Positions 16,179 to 22,354 of a DNA stretch of 64,000 nt are shown here, piece after piece. The number at the start of each line of letters is the position of its first letter. The stretch's first letter is position 1. The translations under genes were made by a program, and so were the position numbers. The notes beneath the pieces are model-generated. The model was not told the origin of the DNA. It did no database searches and worked only from the letters and a program-made list of their open reading frames with translations. This DNA comes from Methylomonas albis (GTDB taxonomy: Bacteria > Pseudomonadota > Gammaproteobacteria > Methylococcales > Methylomonadaceae): positions 434,001 to 498,000 of the forward strand of contig NZ_JACXSS010000001.1 in NCBI RefSeq assembly GCF_014850955.1. The letters are read 5' to 3'.

Positions 16179-16296
16179 TGGTTCCCACGCTCCGGTGTAC
16201 CCGCCGGGCATAAATGGGAACCAGGCCTGGGACGCTCTAGCGTCCCCGAACCGCAGAGCGGTTCAACATGCATTCCCACGCTGGAGCGTAGGAACG
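16179..16296. repeat. Cluster of extragenic palindromes before mtoX
   Basis: Several palindromes are packed here: TTCCCA...TGGGAA arms (16184-16220), GGGACGCT-CT-AGCGTCCC (16229-16246), GAACCGC-AGA-GCGGTTC (16248-16264), and a CATTCCCACGCTGGAGCG unit from 16269. The last unit recurs before the SCO1-MauG gene at 20421. These are REP-like dispersed repeats. Confidence 0.7.
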
Positions 16297-16323
16297 ATAA
16301 CAACAACCAGGGGAGAGAACACC

Positions 16324-17634
16324 ATGACATTTAAACTAAGCACCTTCACCGCCGCGTTACTACTCGGCACCGCCAGCCTGTCGGCCAACGCCGACGAAAC
16401 CTGCGCCTCGCCGTACATGGCGAAAATTACCGGCCAGGAAGATTTTGTATACATCTGGACCTTGGGCGCGGAAGGCGTCGGCGATGAGCAGGACAAGTTG
16501 GTCACCGTCGACGTTAATCCCAAGTCCAAGCAATACGGCAAGGTCATTGGCAGCCTGTCGGTGGGTGGTCGTAACGAAGCCCACCATTCCGACTTTACCG
16601 ATGACCGCAAATTTCTATGGGCCGGCGGTCTGGATACCAACAAGATTTTCATCTTCGACGTGGCCACCGACCCCGCCAAGCCTAAGCTGAGCAAAACCAT
16701 CACCGATTTCGTTGCCAAAAGTGGCGGCGTGGTCGGCCCGCACAGCTTGTACGCCTTGCCGGGGCGGATGATCATCACCGGCCTGTCCAACAACAAAGAC
16801 CACGGCGGCCGCACCGCGATTGTGGAATACAGCAACGCCGGCGACTACATCGCCACCTACTGGCTGCCGACCGACAGCAATCTGGAAGGTGCGATCAAAT
16901 CCGGCAAATACGCGGACGGCTATAACTACGATGTGCGGGTATTGCCGCGCAAAAACCTGATGCTGACCTCGTCGTTTACCGGCTGGTCGAATTACATGAT
17001 GGACTTCGGCAAAATGCTGGCCGACCCGGAAGCGATGAAACGCTTTGGTAACACCGTGGTGCAGTGGGATTTACATAGCCGCCAACCGAAGAAAGTCTTC
17101 GACGTACCCGGTGCGCCTCTGGAAGTCCGTTGCGCCTGGGCGGAAGACCACAACTACTGCTTCACCAGCACCGCGCTGACTTCGAAAATCTGGCTGATTC
17201 ATCAAGACGACAAGGGCGAATGGCAGGCCAAGGATGTGGCGGACATCGGCGAACCCGCCAAAATCCCGCTGCCGGTGGACATCTCCATTTCCAGCGACGA
17301 CAAAACCCTGTGGGTTAACACCTTCATGGACGGCATGACTCGCCGCTTCGACATCAGCGACCCGTTCCACCCTAAGCAAGTGTTCGAGCAAAAAATCGGC
17401 GCGCAAGTGAATATGGTGTCGTCGAGCTGGGACGGCAAGCGTTTGTATTACACCTCTTCGCTGCTGGCTAATTGGGATAAGAAAGGCGCGGACAACGAGC
17501 AGTTCTTCAAAGCCTATAGCTGGGACGGTAGCAAGTTGACCGAGCAGTTCTCGATTGATTTCAATAAAGAGAAACTGGGCCGGGCTCATCAGATGCGGTT
17601 TGGGGCATATTCTTTGTATGGTAAAGCGCCTTAG
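16324..17634 (+). CDS. mtoX: Methanethiol oxidase, selenium-binding-protein (SELENBP1) family
   Basis: From the ATG at 16324 (GGGGAGA site) the protein has 436 residues. A Sec signal peptide (ends near SANA-DE) sends it to the periplasm. Family landmarks include WTLGAEGVGDEQDKLVTVDV, GGRNEAHHSDFTDDRKFLWAGGL, GPHSLYALPG, VRCAWAEDHNYCFTSTALTSKIW and the C-terminal RAHQMRFG. Known members such as Hyphomicrobium MtoX are copper-dependent and oxidise methanethiol to formaldehyde, H2S and H2O2. In those clusters mtoX is followed by SCO1/SenC and MauG-like genes. Here a fused SCO1-MauG gene lies 2.7 kb downstream. A longer open frame from 16195 only reads through a repeat. Confidence 0.9.
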   Translation: MTFKLSTFTAALLLGTASLSANADETCASPYMAKITGQEDFVYIWTLGAEGVGDEQDKLVTVDVNPKSKQYGKVIGSLSVGGRNEAHHSDFTDDRKFLWAGGLDTNKIFIFDVATDPAKPKLSKTITDFVAKSGGVVGPHSLYALPGRMIITGLSNNKDHGGRTAIVEYSNAGDYIATYWLPTDSNLEGAIKSGKYADGYNYDVRVLPRKNLMLTSSFTGWSNYMMDFGKMLADPEAMKRFGNTVVQWDLHSRQPKKVFDVPGAPLEVRCAWAEDHNYCFTSTALTSKIWLIHQDDKGEWQAKDVADIGEPAKIPLPVDISISSDDKTLWVNTFMDGMTRRFDISDPFHPKQVFEQKIGAQVNMVSSSWDGKRLYYTSSLLANWDKKGADNEQFFKAYSWDGSKLTEQFSIDFNKEKLGRAHQMRFGAYSLYGKAP

Positions 17635-17645
17635 GAGGCTTTTTA

Positions 17646-17901
17646 GTGTCGCTATCGCGACGGCTTAATTTAATGTCGGGTCTCGGCCCGACGGCCGAGA
17701 TACTTTCTTTTGCTTGGCCAAAAGAAAGTATCCAAAGAAAAGGCCACCCGGACGCCGCTTGTTTCCTGCGCGCCGAAGCTTTTATCGAGGGTCGGCAGAA
17801 GGGGCTTCCCAGCCCCTCCGCCGACGCAGCGCATCCATGCGCTGCCCCTTCGGGCTGATCTCGATAAAAGCTTCGGTGCTCGGCGCGGCATACGGGAGGA
17901 A
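17646..17901 (+). repeat. Structured repeat, copy 1
   Basis: This 256-bp element starts 11 bases after the mtoX stop. It is a chain of stems: TCTCGGCC/GGCCGAGA, ACTTTCTTTTG/CAAAAGAAAGT, and a long-range stem GAAGCTTTTATCGAG/CTCGATAAAAGCTTC. The long-range stem encloses GTCGGC/GCCGAC, GGGGCT/AGCCCC and GCAGCGCAT/ATGCGCTGC. Copies 2 and 3 keep the same layout with different stem sequences. No coding frame is conserved across the copies. Confidence 0.9.
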
Positions 17902-17918
17902 CCCCGTCCCAAGTATCG

Positions 17919-17961
17919 TAGGGCGCATTAGCGATAGGGTACGCATCGGGTACCCTACCTA
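17919..17961. repeat. Short palindromic repeat (GTAGGG type)
   Basis: A unit bounded by GTAGGG and CCCTAC contains GGGTAC/GTACCC arms. Related GTACCCTAC sequences lie at 18907-18923, so this looks like another dispersed extragenic palindrome. Confidence 0.45.
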
Positions 17962-18055
17962 ACTTTATGATGTTTTTTATAAAGGTCACGAGGTATGCAG
18001 TATTATCTGAGAGGCGAAATAAGAATGTGTTAGTCGTGTGTCGTGGAGAATAGTC

Positions 18056-18232
18056 ATGAATGCTCAACCTCAGTTTATTACCAATGCGAATGGCGAAAAA
18101 ACGGCAGTCATTCTGCCAATCGCCGACTATCAAGAACTCATGGAAGACTTGGCTGATTTAGCCGCAATTGCTGAACGAAAAGACGAACCCAATATTCCAT
18201 TTGAGGCGGCGTTGTCAGAAATAGGCTTATGA
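18056..18232 (+). CDS. Antitoxin of a RelBE-type pair (Phd/YefM/RelB-like)
   Basis: The 58-residue protein begins MNAQPQFITNANGEKTAVILPIADYQELMEDL. This is the usual N-terminus of small antitoxins that bind their own promoter and the partner toxin. The ATG at 18056 has GGAG eight bases upstream. Its stop overlaps the toxin start (ATGA). The pair sits between two copies of the structured repeat. Confidence 0.82.
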   Translation: MNAQPQFITNANGEKTAVILPIADYQELMEDLADLAAIAERKDEPNIPFEAALSEIGL

Positions 18233-18489
18233 CGGTCTATGTCCTAGAGATAAAGCGGAGCGCGCAAAAGGAGTTGTCGCAATTGCCTAAGTCGATTGCC
18301 GAAAAGGTCGTTACACAAATTAGAGCGCTTGCCGACGATCCGCGGCCTAATGGGTGCAAAAAGTTAGTAGGAACCGAACATAGTTATCGAATCCGAGTAA
18401 ACGATTACCGTGTGGTGTATTCGGTTTTGGATAGCCGCTTGATTATCCAAGTCATAAAAATTGGGCATCGCAAGGATGTGTACCAATGA
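18229..18489 (+). CDS. relE: RelE-family toxin
   Basis: The 86-residue basic protein has the RelE pattern. It starts YVLEIKRSAQKELSQLPK, followed by a helix ending in IRALADDPRPNGCKKL and the C-terminal strands YRIRVNDYRVVYSV and QVIKIGHRKDVYQ. These contain the Arg and Tyr residues used by RelE to cleave mRNA in the ribosomal A site. It is translationally coupled to the antitoxin by a 4-base overlap. The second structured repeat follows 46 bases after its stop. Confidence 0.88.
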   Translation: MTVYVLEIKRSAQKELSQLPKSIAEKVVTQIRALADDPRPNGCKKLVGTEHSYRIRVNDYRVVYSVLDSRLIIQVIKIGHRKDVYQ

Positions 18490-18535
18490 TTTTGTTGGTG
18501 GAGAAGTTATAGGCAGCGAGGGGCAAGAATAGTTA

Positions 18536-18790
18536 GTGTCGCTGTCGCGACGGCTTAATTTAATGTCGGTTCGCGGACAGACAACCGCGATACTTTTCTT
18601 TGTTTGGCCAAAGAAAAGTATCCAAAAGAAAAGACACCCGGACGCCGCTTTTCCCTGCGCACCGAAGCTTTTATCGAGGGTCGGCAGAAGGGGCTTCCCA
18701 GCCCCTCCGCCGACGTGCGGCATCCCTGCCGCACCCCTTCGGGCTGATCTCGATAAAAGCTCCGGTGCTCGGCGCGGCATACGGGAGGAA
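18536..18790 (+). repeat. Structured repeat, copy 2
   Basis: This 255-bp element is a direct repeat of copy 1 at about 85-90 percent identity by eye. Where it differs it stays paired: TCGCGG/CCGCGA replaces the CTCGG/CCGAG stem, and TGCGGCA/TGCCGCA replaces GCAGCGCAT/ATGCGCTGC. The GTCGGC/GCCGAC and GGGGCT/AGCCCC stems are unchanged. Confidence 0.9.
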
Positions 18791-18939
18791 AACCTCACCT
18801 GGAGATTGGAAGGTGATTAGGAGATTTATGTGAGAGGTAGAGTACACATCGCGTACCATCTTGAATTCATTGCTTGTTCAAAGCATAAAGTAGGTGCGCA
18901 GGGCGTACCCTACCGCACTAACTTAGCAAAAGGTTTTAC

Positions 18940-19881
18940 GTGAACATTCCATTTTTCGATGCGTTGGCAAATGGGCAACGCTTTTTAATTGCTGGGGTTG
19001 GCGGAGGATTCGACATTGTCAGTGGCGTCCCCATTTACCTATATTTGCGTCGCCTTGGTAAGCAAGTGGCGATGGCCAATCTTTCTTTCACAGCGTTGGG
19101 TTTTTCTAAATGTGAAGAAATTCGCCCTGGCGCTTATCTTGTCAACAAACGATCTGCCGACTTGCCGTATTTTCCAGAGAGGTACATTTTGGAGTGGTTG
19201 TCGTCTCGGGGAGAAGAGCCGGCAATGTATGCGTTTTCGAATGAAATTGGCGTCTTACCCTTAAGAAGTGCATACGCCGAAATAGTTGAACGTCATCAAA
19301 TCGATACGCTGGTATTGGTTGATGGCGGTACCGACAGTCTGATTTTTGGGGATGAACCGGGGATAGGAACAGTTGTTGAAGACGCATGTTCAATGATTGC
19401 TGCCAATGGCGTAACCGTAAAACAAAGTTTAATGGCGATGGTAGGTTTTGGAATAGATCATTTCCACGATGTCAATCACCACGCCTGTCTTGAAAATATT
19501 GCGACTCTAATCAAGGACGATGGCTATTTGGGAGCTTTTTCTTTAACCAAGGATATGTATGAGGGCAGAGGGTTCCTGGAATTGGTTGATTATCTAAATC
19601 AAAATATGCGCGTTAGGCATTCTATTGTTACAAATTCCGTTGCTAGCGCGATAAAGGGTGAATTTGGGGATCACCAAGTGACATCTCGAACCAGTGGTAG
19701 CGAATTATTTATAAATCCACTGATGAGTTTGTATTGGACTTTTCACTTGCCTGCTGTCGTTCGGCGAATGGGGTTTGCTGCAAAAATTGAGAACACTACT
19801 GAAATGGTCGAAGTTGCTAAATTGATCCGTTCTTTCCGGATTGGAAGTAGGCTAAGGGATCGTAAGGGTATTCCATTGTAA
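18940..19881 (+). CDS. DUF1152 family protein
   Basis: The 313-residue protein begins with a GTG and shows a nucleotide-binding-like N-terminus (FLIAGVGGGFDIVSGVPIYLYLRRLGK), then TLVLVDGGTDSLIFGDEPGIGT and HFHDVNHHACLENIATL. This pattern fits the DUF1152 family, cytosolic proteins of unknown function best known from archaea and scattered bacteria. The aspartate-rich GGTDSL loop suggests a catalytic or metal site, but nothing is established. It lies between copies 2 and 3 of the structured repeat and is less G+C rich than mtoX, which suggests acquisition with the island. Confidence 0.7.
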   Translation: MNIPFFDALANGQRFLIAGVGGGFDIVSGVPIYLYLRRLGKQVAMANLSFTALGFSKCEEIRPGAYLVNKRSADLPYFPERYILEWLSSRGEEPAMYAFSNEIGVLPLRSAYAEIVERHQIDTLVLVDGGTDSLIFGDEPGIGTVVEDACSMIAANGVTVKQSLMAMVGFGIDHFHDVNHHACLENIATLIKDDGYLGAFSLTKDMYEGRGFLELVDYLNQNMRVRHSIVTNSVASAIKGEFGDHQVTSRTSGSELFINPLMSLYWTFHLPAVVRRMGFAAKIENTTEMVEVAKLIRSFRIGSRLRDRKGIPL

Positions 19882-19935
19882 AAACTCATGGCGCTCGCGC
19901 AGATCATGCATTGAAATTTTGATCCCGAGAGGGTT

Positions 19936-20331
19936 TTCCTCCCGTATGTCGCGCCGAGCACCGGAGCTTTTGGACGGACAAATCGGCAGGATAGCCGATT
20001 TGCATGCGCAGCACCCGAAGGGCAAGGTACATGGATGTACCGAGTGAGCAGCCCGTAGGGGCGATGCAGGGATGCATCGCGTTGCCGAAGGGGCAGGAAG
20101 CCCCTTTCGGCAACCCCGTTCAAAAGCTTCGGCGCGCAGGAAAAAAGCGGCATCCGGGTCGCCTTTTCTTTGGATACTTTCTTTTGGCCAAGCACAAATT
20201 CGCCTGGAGCGAATTTGAACAGCCGATAGGCTGGCCCGCAGGGCGAAAACCAGGGACGGTTTTCGTAGCGAAAGTATCTCGGCTGTCGGGCCGAGACCCG
20301 ACATTAAATAAAGCCGTCGCGGTAGCGACAC
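19936..20331 (-). repeat. Structured repeat, copy 3 (inverted, expanded)
   Basis: This 396-bp copy is inverted relative to the other two and is longer because it has extra hairpins (AAATTCGC/GCGAATTT, CGAAAAC/GTTTTCG, CAGCCGAT/AGGCTG). On its own strand the central stem is GTTGCCGAA/TTCGGCAAC instead of GTCGGC/GCCGAC. The inner palindrome is GCGATGCA/TGCATCGC, and the closing stem is AGCTTTTG/CAAAAGCT. Base pairing is kept while sequence changes. It ends 26 bp before the next gene. Confidence 0.88.
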
Positions 20332-20356: not shown

Positions 20357-22354
20357 ATGAAGCTCCCTTATCGCCGTAGTTTATCTTGTCTGAAAGCCGA
20401 CGCTGGAGCGTCCGCCGCGGCATTCCCACGCTGGAGCATGGGAACGATAGCGTTACTATGCTTTCTCTTTAACTTGGTAACGCCATTAAGCCAAGCTCAA
20501 GAAACCAAACCCTTAGCCCCCGGCTACACCGCATTACCATTTGAACCCGCAAAACCCGGCACCTACACGCTGCCAGTCATCACCAAAGCTGCCGACGGCC
20601 AAGTAATAACCAGCAACAACCAACCAAAAAACCTCCACGACTTAATGGGCGACAAGCTGGTGTTGCTCAGCTTCATCTACGCCGCCTGCAGCGATGTCAA
20701 CGGCTGCCCGCTGGCGACTCAGGTGTTGCACAAAATCAGCCGGCAATTGCAAAAACAGCCGGAATTGGCGGACAAACTCAGGTTGTTGACGCTGAGCTTT
20801 AACCCCGCGCAAGACACCCCGGAGATGATGCGCCATTACGGCGAGGGTTTTAAAACCGGTGACTTCGATTGGCAATTTTTGACCACCAAAGACGAGGCCA
20901 GCTTGCAGCCCATCCTCGGCGGCTACCAGCAAAACGTGCAAAAGGTCTACGATGATAAAGGCCAGTTTACCGGCACGTTTTCGCATTTGTTGCGGGTGTA
21001 TCTGATCGACAAAGACAAGAACGTCCGGAATATCTATAGTGTGGATTTTCTACACGCCGACACGCTGATCAACGATGTAAAGACCTTGCTGGCCGATGCC
21101 AAGCCGGAAGTCGCGCCGGGGCTGGTCCAGGCGGAGATGTTGTTTCAGCCTGGTGACAACAAACAAAATTACCAGCAGACTGATTACCAAACCCGCTCAC
21201 TGGCGTTGGCGCAGCGGCGTGGCATTCCGGCAAAGCTGATTGAGTTTGCTCAAAAACCTCCGCTGGGTTTGCCGAAGTTACCGGTGCCGAAAGACAATCC
21301 GCTGACCAACGCCAAAATCGAATTGGGCCGCAAGTTGTTTTTCGACCGCCGGCTGTCGCTGAACAATACCTTTTCCTGTGCCATCTGCCATATCCCGGAA
21401 CAAGGCTTTAGTAATAACGAAATGACCTCGGCGGTGGGCATCGAAGGGCGTAGTGTGCGGCGTAACAGTCCGTCTCTGTATAACGTCGGTTACGCGCAAT
21501 TGCTGTTTCACGATGGCCGGGAAAACAGTCTGGAGCAACAAGCCTGGGGGCCATTGCTGGCGCATAACGAGATGGCGAATCCGTCAATTGGTTATGTGGT
21601 GGACAAGCTGAAAGTCAGCGCCGATTATCGCGGGTTGTTTGAAAAGGCCTTTAACAAAGGGCCGACGATGGAAACTATCGGTCAGGCCTTGGCCAGCTAT
21701 CAGCGCGCCTTGAATGCTGCTGATTCGCCGTTCGATCGTTGGTATTTTGGAAAACAGAAATCTGCACTCAGCGAGGCAGCGCAGCGCGGTTTTAGCTTGT
21801 TTACCGGCAAAGCCACTTGCAGCGCTTGCCATACGCTTGACGACAAGTCTGCCTTATTTACCGATCAAAAACGGCATAACACAGGGATCGGCTATGCTGA
21901 GTCCATGCAAAAGTCTCCGGAACAGCAAAAAGTGCAAGTGGCGCCAGGCGTATTTGTGGACGTGAATAGCGCCAATCTGAAAGGTCTGAATGCCGAGAAA
22001 CCCGGCGACTTGGGCTATTACGAGATTAGCCAAAATCCCGCTGACCGCTGGGCCTACAAAACCCCGTCGCTGCGCAACGTCGCACTCAGTGCGCCCTACA
22101 TGCATAACGGTTCCCTGCCGACTTTGGCGGAGGTGGTGAAGTTTTACAATCAAGGCGGCGCGGTGAACGAAAATTTGTCGCCCTTGCTCAAGCCGCTGGG
22201 TTTGTCTGATCGGGAAAGCGCTGATCTTGTAGCGTTTTTAACAGCGCTGACTGGCGGCAACGTAAGCACTTTGATTTCCGATGCGTTCGCCGCACCGGTC
22301 GGCGATAGCGGCACGATGGCGCTGCCTATGTCGAGAGCTAGTAAAGGTAGATAG
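20357..22354 (+). CDS. Fused SCO1/SenC - dihaem peroxidase (MauG/CcpA-like) protein
   Basis: The 665-residue protein joins two copper/haem maturation modules. Residues ~60-250 are SCO1-like, with a cysteine pair C111/C117 in CSDVNGC (CX5C rather than the usual CX3C) and H210 in the expected HxxxxYLID context. Residues ~300-640 are a dihaem cytochrome c peroxidase/MauG domain with haem motifs CAICH (C341-H345) and CSACH (C488-H492) and the TPSLRNVALSAPYMHNG motif (M582). SCO1 and MauG genes accompany mtoX elsewhere and are thought to mature it, so this protein probably does so in the periplasm. The true start may be ATG 20438, because the first 27 codons read a dispersed repeat. Confidence 0.88.
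   Translation: MKLPYRRSLSCLKADAGASAAAFPRWSMGTIALLCFLFNLVTPLSQAQETKPLAPGYTALPFEPAKPGTYTLPVITKAADGQVITSNNQPKNLHDLMGDKLVLLSFIYAACSDVNGCPLATQVLHKISRQLQKQPELADKLRLLTLSFNPAQDTPEMMRHYGEGFKTGDFDWQFLTTKDEASLQPILGGYQQNVQKVYDDKGQFTGTFSHLLRVYLIDKDKNVRNIYSVDFLHADTLINDVKTLLADAKPEVAPGLVQAEMLFQPGDNKQNYQQTDYQTRSLALAQRRGIPAKLIEFAQKPPLGLPKLPVPKDNPLTNAKIELGRKLFFDRRLSLNNTFSCAICHIPEQGFSNNEMTSAVGIEGRSVRRNSPSLYNVGYAQLLFHDGRENSLEQQAWGPLLAHNEMANPSIGYVVDKLKVSADYRGLFEKAFNKGPTMETIGQALASYQRALNAADSPFDRWYFGKQKSALSEAAQRGFSLFTGKATCSACHTLDDKSALFTDQKRHNTGIGYAESMQKSPEQQKVQVAPGVFVDVNSANLKGLNAEKPGDLGYYEISQNPADRWAYKTPSLRNVALSAPYMHNGSLPTLAEVVKFYNQGGAVNENLSPLLKPLGLSDRESADLVAFLTALTGGNVSTLISDAFAAPVGDSGTMALPMSRASKGR
20397..20449. repeat. 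REP-like repeat inside the 5' end of the SCO1-MauG frame
   Basis: GACGCT-GG-AGCGTC (20400-20413) is followed by CATTCCCACGCTGGAGC and GGGAACGAT (20421-20446). It is the same unit as at 16269, upstream of mtoX. In both places the open frame through the repeat encodes AFPRWS(V/M)GTI, which argues that this segment is not a conserved protein part. Confidence 0.7.

Follow-up and report, generated by a model that had tools for sequence, protein, structure and literature searches.

What is the role of a large, hairpin-rich repeat that occurs three times in the gap between two genes, with other genes enclosed between its copies? The question is raised by a 64,000-nucleotide stretch of the 5.4-Mb genome of Methylomonas albis (the window, to which all positions refer), for which a preliminary description had reported three repeat copies with a common layout of nested stems, and had suggested that they could be a non-autonomous mobile element, a structured RNA, or both. 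Our analysis confirms the observation and finds it to be larger than first stated. The repeats and their stems had been recognised correctly; a second pseudoknot, the pairing of the repeats as boundaries and the exchangeable cargo between them had been missed. The reading that we consider probable is that the repeats mark out gene sockets as paired boundaries that face outward, and that the cargo of these sockets is exchanged by homologous recombination.

Three boundary repeats at one site

The three copies, with the stems quoted for them, were found at 17646-17901 (copy 1, forward strand, the left boundary with its tip outward), 18536-18790 (copy 2, forward strand, the left end of an inner cassette) and 19936-20331 (copy 3, reverse strand, the right boundary with its tip outward). 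Copy 3 is longer because two inserts (approximately 19994-20043 and 20198-20266) separate its matched repeat pieces. Each insert has hairpins of its own, and the stretch spanning the second one also aligns with the right boundary of the same site in the related genomes G017, G023 and G028. The context of copy 2, a left boundary that follows relBE-like sequence, is found again in G031, G017 and G028. Just inside copy 1 lies a GTAG-headed, REP-like palindrome (17918-17959), and REP-like repeats adjoin the inner side of many boundaries. Several different families of such palindromes, many of them GTAG-headed, are present in the inner 40-150 bases of the boundaries.

The site is flanked on the left by an SBP56 family gene (16195-17634, forward strand, start codon uncertain), which we take to be of the methanethiol-oxidase type, and on the right by a gene for an SCO1/SenC plus di-haem cytochrome c peroxidase (MauG-like) protein (20357-22354, forward strand). 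Between these, copies 1-3 enclose three forward-strand genes, namely a toxin-antitoxin pair of RelB/ParE type and a gene for a DUF1152 protein: the RelB/Phd-type antitoxin (18056-18232; Pfam RelB-like, 2.8e-08), the ParE/RelE-type toxin, whose gene overlaps that of the antitoxin (18229-18489; Pfam ParE_toxin, 2.7e-13), and the DUF1152 protein (18940-19881; Pfam, 4.2e-20).

A covarying fold with two pseudoknots

In copy 1, on the forward strand, pairing defines the helices P1 (17648-17652/17657-17661), P2 (17675-17680/17687-17692), P3 (17700-17712/17719-17731), P4 (17747-17750 and 17752-17758 with 17885-17891 and 17893-17896), P5 (17778-17789/17860-17871), P6 (17791-17796/17820-17825), P6b (17800-17805/17812-17817) and P7 (17826-17833/17838-17845), together with the pseudoknots P2pk (17682-17686/17695-17699) and P3pk (17715-17718/17743-17746). 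The CTCGG/CCGAG stem had been named before, while its interleaving with GTCGGG/CCCGAC had escaped notice.

Covariation was counted over P1-P8 with P2pk, with helix limits trimmed by hand after inspection of the pair counts, in 87 copies obtained by thinning 131 full-length ones to less than 93% identity, and was compared with 500 shuffles. Standard pairs made up 97.4% of the 6430 pair cells, versus 87.5% after shuffling, and 593 cells were doubly changed, versus 179 ± 9; none of the 500 shuffles reached either value. Double changes were seen in 35 pairs (22.3 in the shuffles), and the count of further pair types did not exceed the shuffles (65 versus 63.4, reached by 159 of 500). Taken alone, the two interleaved helices were 98.2% paired, versus 83.9% after shuffling, and had 85 doubly changed cells where the shuffles gave 22 ± 3.6; their numbers of changed pairs and of pair types were not above the shuffles. 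A structure that includes P3pk was scored in copy 1 together with the 22 near-full-length copies, from 11 genera, that were obtained from 30 loci outside the genus; here 96.3% of cells were paired and 195 were doubly changed, versus 54 ± 6; since P3pk was noticed on this other-genera alignment, only the other counts are independent where P3pk is concerned. Loci sorted by hand as lying outside Methylococcales, among them two viral contigs, gave 37 distinct P3 modules; of these, 31 had at least 4 bases of complement downstream of the loop, versus 9.4 (maximum 20) in 1000 shuffles.

The earlier proposal that the fold is under selection is supported by the covariation, which is very strong, recurs in other genera and extends to the interleaved helices. 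Covariation, for which statistical testing had been suggested with that proposal, was tested here by shuffling, and doubly changed cells stood far above the shuffles in the 87 copies. The covariation of interleaved helices implies a molecule that works as one strand, either RNA or DNA. Palindrome correction by template switching was considered and rejected, as it would not be expected to create the interleaved P2pk and P3pk, and a coding explanation was rejected as well: open reading frames span the repeats on both strands, in several frames, and the changes appear to follow the pairing.

Comparison with known repeats

No Rfam family matched any part of the window at its gathering score, in agreement with the initial impression that no named family fits. 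The best weak match was to ncS011, a Burkholderia sRNA family in Rfam, with a score of 18.7 against a cut-off of 48 (19978-20169, on the outward-reading strand of copy 3); this identity was rejected, the score being below the cut-off and four boundary-repeat loci having no match at E≤1, and ncS011 is kept as a lead only. A search of titles and abstracts, covering journals other than subscription ones, found no published description of the repeat family. REPs are short, GTAG-headed hairpins, whereas the boundary repeat is a pseudoknotted multi-helix fold of about 250 nt, with another sequence and no GTAG head at its tip. REP/BIME elements with RAYT (PMC2817692) and the present family are alike in being palindromic intergenic repeats. 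With MITEs, as outlined in PMC10969869, and Correia elements (PMC2649163), the family shares dispersed intergenic repeats that are able to fold; it differs from them in that a repeat of about 250 nt stands at either end of enclosed genes, that different species have the sites in common, and that no target duplication is clear.

Copies are paired with their tips outward

Four genomes of the Methylomonas group each have at least about 40 copies of the repeat, which is about 250 nt long, the copies considered being the best 40 of 66-70 candidates per genome, so that these counts are lower bounds. With copy 1 as the query, 44 matches were found in its own genome, including itself and a few fragments, a number that excludes chance. 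A search of related genomes, as had been suggested, was made with the same query and gave matches in 45 of 61 genomes, own included; three of the 37 genomes of the genus (G001, G022 and G032) gave none in it.

Orientation was compared in four genomes (G000, which is that of the window, G036, G011 and G025), using 162 of 176 listed copies, with short partial ones left out. Random placement would give fewer than two close neighbours per genome; at least 64 neighbour pairs less than 6 kb apart were found in the four genomes, 50 of them with tips outward (+-), 9 in the -+ arrangement, 3 -- and 2 ++. The tips facing outward in the +- pairs read GTGTCGC. In 81 fetched loci, which like those of the site comparisons were picked partly for holding pairs, there were 68 tip-outward pairs with 68 to 5127 bases between their inner ends. 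A point against the reading of paired boundaries is that the partner was the nearest copy in the genome for only 21 of 88 copies. An asymmetry between left and right repeat haplotypes was also considered and is unsupported (the types were based on simple string rules and left 28 of 131 copies unclassified). On the strand leading to the tip, over the last approximately 200 bases of 130 flanks, C falls from 0.27 to 0.10 and T rises from 0.22 to 0.41; the depletion of C beside the tip is seen in both left and right flanks, for example at 17450-17645 of the window. Possibly, this C loss and T gain reflects single-strand deamination or a preference for certain sites.

Conserved sites with different cargo

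The window site was compared in 21 loci of the genus, the window and 20 others. Both flanking genes were present in 11 of these, and boundary repeats in 10 of the 11; G005 has both genes and no boundary repeats. The cargo differs between loci except for G011 and G006, which have a common 230-aa ORF (96.8%). In place of the relBE and DUF1152 genes of G000, there are ORFs of 139 and 188 aa in G023, of 474 aa in G031, of 273 aa in G024 and of 160 aa in G025; G036 has an ORF whose HNH match falls below Pfam's cut-off, G017 a Tae4-family amidase with a second ORF, and G028 an empty boundary pair. The DUF1152 gene of the window recurs in Methylomonas sp. LW13 (93% DNA identity), M. fluvii (92%) and locus L267 (87%), there in another socket that is the same in all three.

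In the set of 68 pairs, 19 flank-defined sites were present in at least two genomes and 5 in one, the first number being approximate because two of the 19 site clusters join two sockets of one genome. When cargo of more than 300 bases was compared between orthologous sites, counting as shared at least 150 bases by blastn, 71 of 80 site pairs shared none and 9 shared some; six of the nine come from one site with a common REP-associated transposase region, and the seventh has another REP-associated transposase gene in common. Of the sockets, 58 are large enough to hold a gene; together they contain 83 cargo ORFs, which fell into 67 clusters, the largest being those of a REP-associated transposase (5 of the 83) and IS110 (4), and among these ORFs there is no recombinase or mobility gene common to the sockets. 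Family scans, which took in 67 of the 83 ORFs, detected, among others, a retron St85-type reverse transcriptase and effector, a KAP/Qat-like ATPase, Mrr, PIN, GNAT, DUF5677, IS110, IS256 and REP-associated transposases, these last in 4 of the 67 scanned proteins; no IntI integrase was among the top 25 families listed. Loci L030 and L039 differ in cargo and have in common an IS256-type insertion (99.6% over 1.3 kb) within it. The GC content of the cargo is 41.9%, versus 54.2% in the flanks, and is lower in 55 of 56 cases, which suggests that the cargo consists of foreign genes.

Minimal mobile elements are not known to have a mobility gene common to their cassettes, and none was found among the 83 cargo ORFs in their 67 clusters. 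In Neisseria, as outlined in PMC3082526, these elements are whole-gene cassettes that homologous recombination brings in between two conserved genes and that vary from strain to strain. Varying cassettes at one conserved gene pair are also what we find here. Unlike them, the Methylomonas sites have paired, structured inverted repeats that frame many sites per genome, and some cargo occurs at more than one site. By function, the Neisseria elements are the closest known kind, with the Methylomonas sockets adding structured boundaries of their own.

How cargo may be exchanged

Junctions could be read in two recent exchanges only. One is a 2.2-kb cargo that is present twice in G036, at unrelated sites and with 99.87% identity: on one side, 100% identity runs from the cargo into the right boundary repeat and ends inside it, and on the other it ends inside the inner REP. 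In the other, a site compared between G036 and LW13, the flank is 99.9% identical and the boundary repeat practically identical, while identity falls to about 0.9 over an inner REP, past which the cargo is unrelated. Such junctions within repeats and REPs, together with the lack of a clear target-site duplication (mean longest match 1.34, versus 1.20 ± 0.11 in shuffled controls; 62 pairs), point to homologous recombination. Boundary copies would hold fixed intergenic sites whose flanking genes stay, and the AT-rich foreign genes between two boundaries would be replaced over time. Exchange would then proceed through ordinary homologous recombination, with the common repeat family acting as portable homology and incoming DNA probably as the recombination partner. 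In 79 orthologous boundary comparisons, excess identity was lowest in columns 21-100 and highest in columns 141-180 and 221-240; the inner part of the repeat tends to stay with the site. Since this profile is the opposite of that expected from frequent crossovers in the repeat, many exchanges must have used something else.

The 2.2-kb cargo carries an IS110-type transposase gene, and thus a transposase is possible for that exchange. Another reading makes the repeats the long terminal inverted repeats of a transposon that carries cargo and is moved entire by an enzyme from elsewhere, such as a REP-associated tyrosine transposase; the tip-outward pairs with cargo at many sites, the subterminal hairpins, the REP-associated transposase genes of some sockets and the IS110-type gene in the cargo copied in G036 are consistent with this. 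However, target duplications are not apparent, the sites are common to different species, a recent junction lies inside the repeat and not at its tip, and even the largest clusters of cargo ORFs, both of transposases, are small; we consider such a transposon unlikely. The non-autonomous mobile element proposed at the outset is correct only in part: a single repeat is not the unit, and it is the inverted pair that frames exchangeable genes, at a site that is fixed. Empty sites in relatives, the check suggested for that proposal, were sought and no clean one was found, the joined flanks of one socket matching a flank that is itself repeated, and around copy 1 the comparison with G028, G031 and G017 indicates sequence that was replaced and not precisely inserted. 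In view of these negative results, on target duplication and on empty sites, transposition is not established.

The integron offers another precedent for exchange. Its attC sites form directly oriented arrays next to an integrase. The sockets share with integron cassettes exchangeable cargo beside sites with a conserved single-strand fold, but their inverted pairs are dispersed, with no common recombinase, and a direct, attC-like array is not what we observe, 5 of the 64 close neighbours being direct and 50 inverted with tips outward. Folded single-stranded DNA sites, attC-like in principle and used by a putative site-specific recombinase, would account for the exchangeable cargo, for a single-strand fold conserved down to two pseudoknots, and for the near absence of G.U pairs described below. 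Nevertheless, the dispersal of the inverted pairs, the lack of a recombinase common to the sockets and an exchange whose breaks lie in a boundary repeat on one side and in a REP on the other make this quite unlikely, and exchange between paired boundaries by homologous recombination is the reading that we retain as probable.

Strand and possible role of the fold

The evidence on which strand folds is mixed. Among the 6430 cells of the 87 copies, A.C mismatches, which are wobble pairs on the complementary strand, number 91 versus 20 G.T, and the complementary strand is the more stable as an RNA fold in 83 of the 87 copies; P3pk has 3 G.T and no A.C. The near absence of G.U (the same 20 of 6430 cells) is unusual for RNA. 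Between 17600 and 20400 there are 9 terminator-like sites, versus 3.5 ± 1.6 in shuffled sequence, of which seven, two of them overlapping, are inside the repeats, and six of these seven are on the inward-reading strand. The conserved single-strand fold, a multibranch stem with two pseudoknots, may be at work mainly as RNA at the edges of the cassettes, where it could serve as a two-way transcription terminator or insulator, allowing genes to be exchanged without disturbing their neighbours. We put this role forward tentatively, as the least certain step of the model.

Spread beyond the genus

In the order, 102 of 251 genomes (24 of 48 genera) have a match to the 151-nt inner part of the repeat, and a 79-nt core matches 34 of 369 genomes and 30 of 272 genera in the class, own included. 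A strict core pattern was found in 14 of 398 genomes of the phylum, namely the own genome and 13 of the same class, with none in a backwards control; E. coli genomes had no match to the 79-base core, and a match was also found in Ilyobacter, a fusobacterium. The core hairpin-pseudoknot occurs across Gammaproteobacteria. A Pasteurella multocida record (L378, 2500-2915) has an inverted pair of core hairpins in the dapF/DUF484 gap, with no annotated gene between. Inverted pairs about 0.4-0.5 kb apart are also found in L387, L390, L405 and L446, and in G925 an inverted pair has PAAR and Tae4 genes between its copies. Tae4-family T6SS amidases are cargo both in Methylomonas (L087, 2702-3214) and in another family of Gammaproteobacteria (L444, 3913-4527). 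A phage origin was rejected (the boundary 22-mer is in 0 viral contigs, with no similarity in phages), as was a plasmid origin (4 plasmid records matched, over short stretches of the core only). The core hairpin pattern is present in two viral contigs (L412 and L413).

The wide occurrence of the core hairpin-pseudoknot, and pairs with as little as 0.4-0.5 kb between them, would be expected of a repeat that is primarily a structured RNA, or a selfish repeat landing near gene ends, with the pairs and the differences in cargo as by-products of gene-flow hotspots. The strong bias in orientation and the coincidence of cargo limits with boundaries at many sites argue against it, and we regard this explanation as very improbable. 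Under our preferred reading of paired boundaries around exchangeable genes, it is conceivable, although we would stop short of calling it probable, that the Methylococcales elements are the studied version of a gene-exchange platform extending through the class Gammaproteobacteria, in which pseudoknotted pairs mark and insulate fixed sockets and AT-rich genes for defence, toxin-antitoxin systems and competition move in and out.

Present by the dozen in this methane-eating bacterium and its relatives, at fixed chromosomal places and with genes that vary between species, the sockets look like an unrecognised platform for the swapping of foreign genes. The boundary pairs would be a physical marker of where such genes enter and leave genomes, and accessory genes, among them a retron, toxin-antitoxin pairs, T6SS effectors and many unknowns, could therefore be listed by looking between them. 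As a structured family, too, the repeats are new, with two pseudoknots that covary and a role that is directly testable, and they open the way to experiments, in methanotrophs, on how foreign genes may be exchanged without breaking the neighbouring ones.
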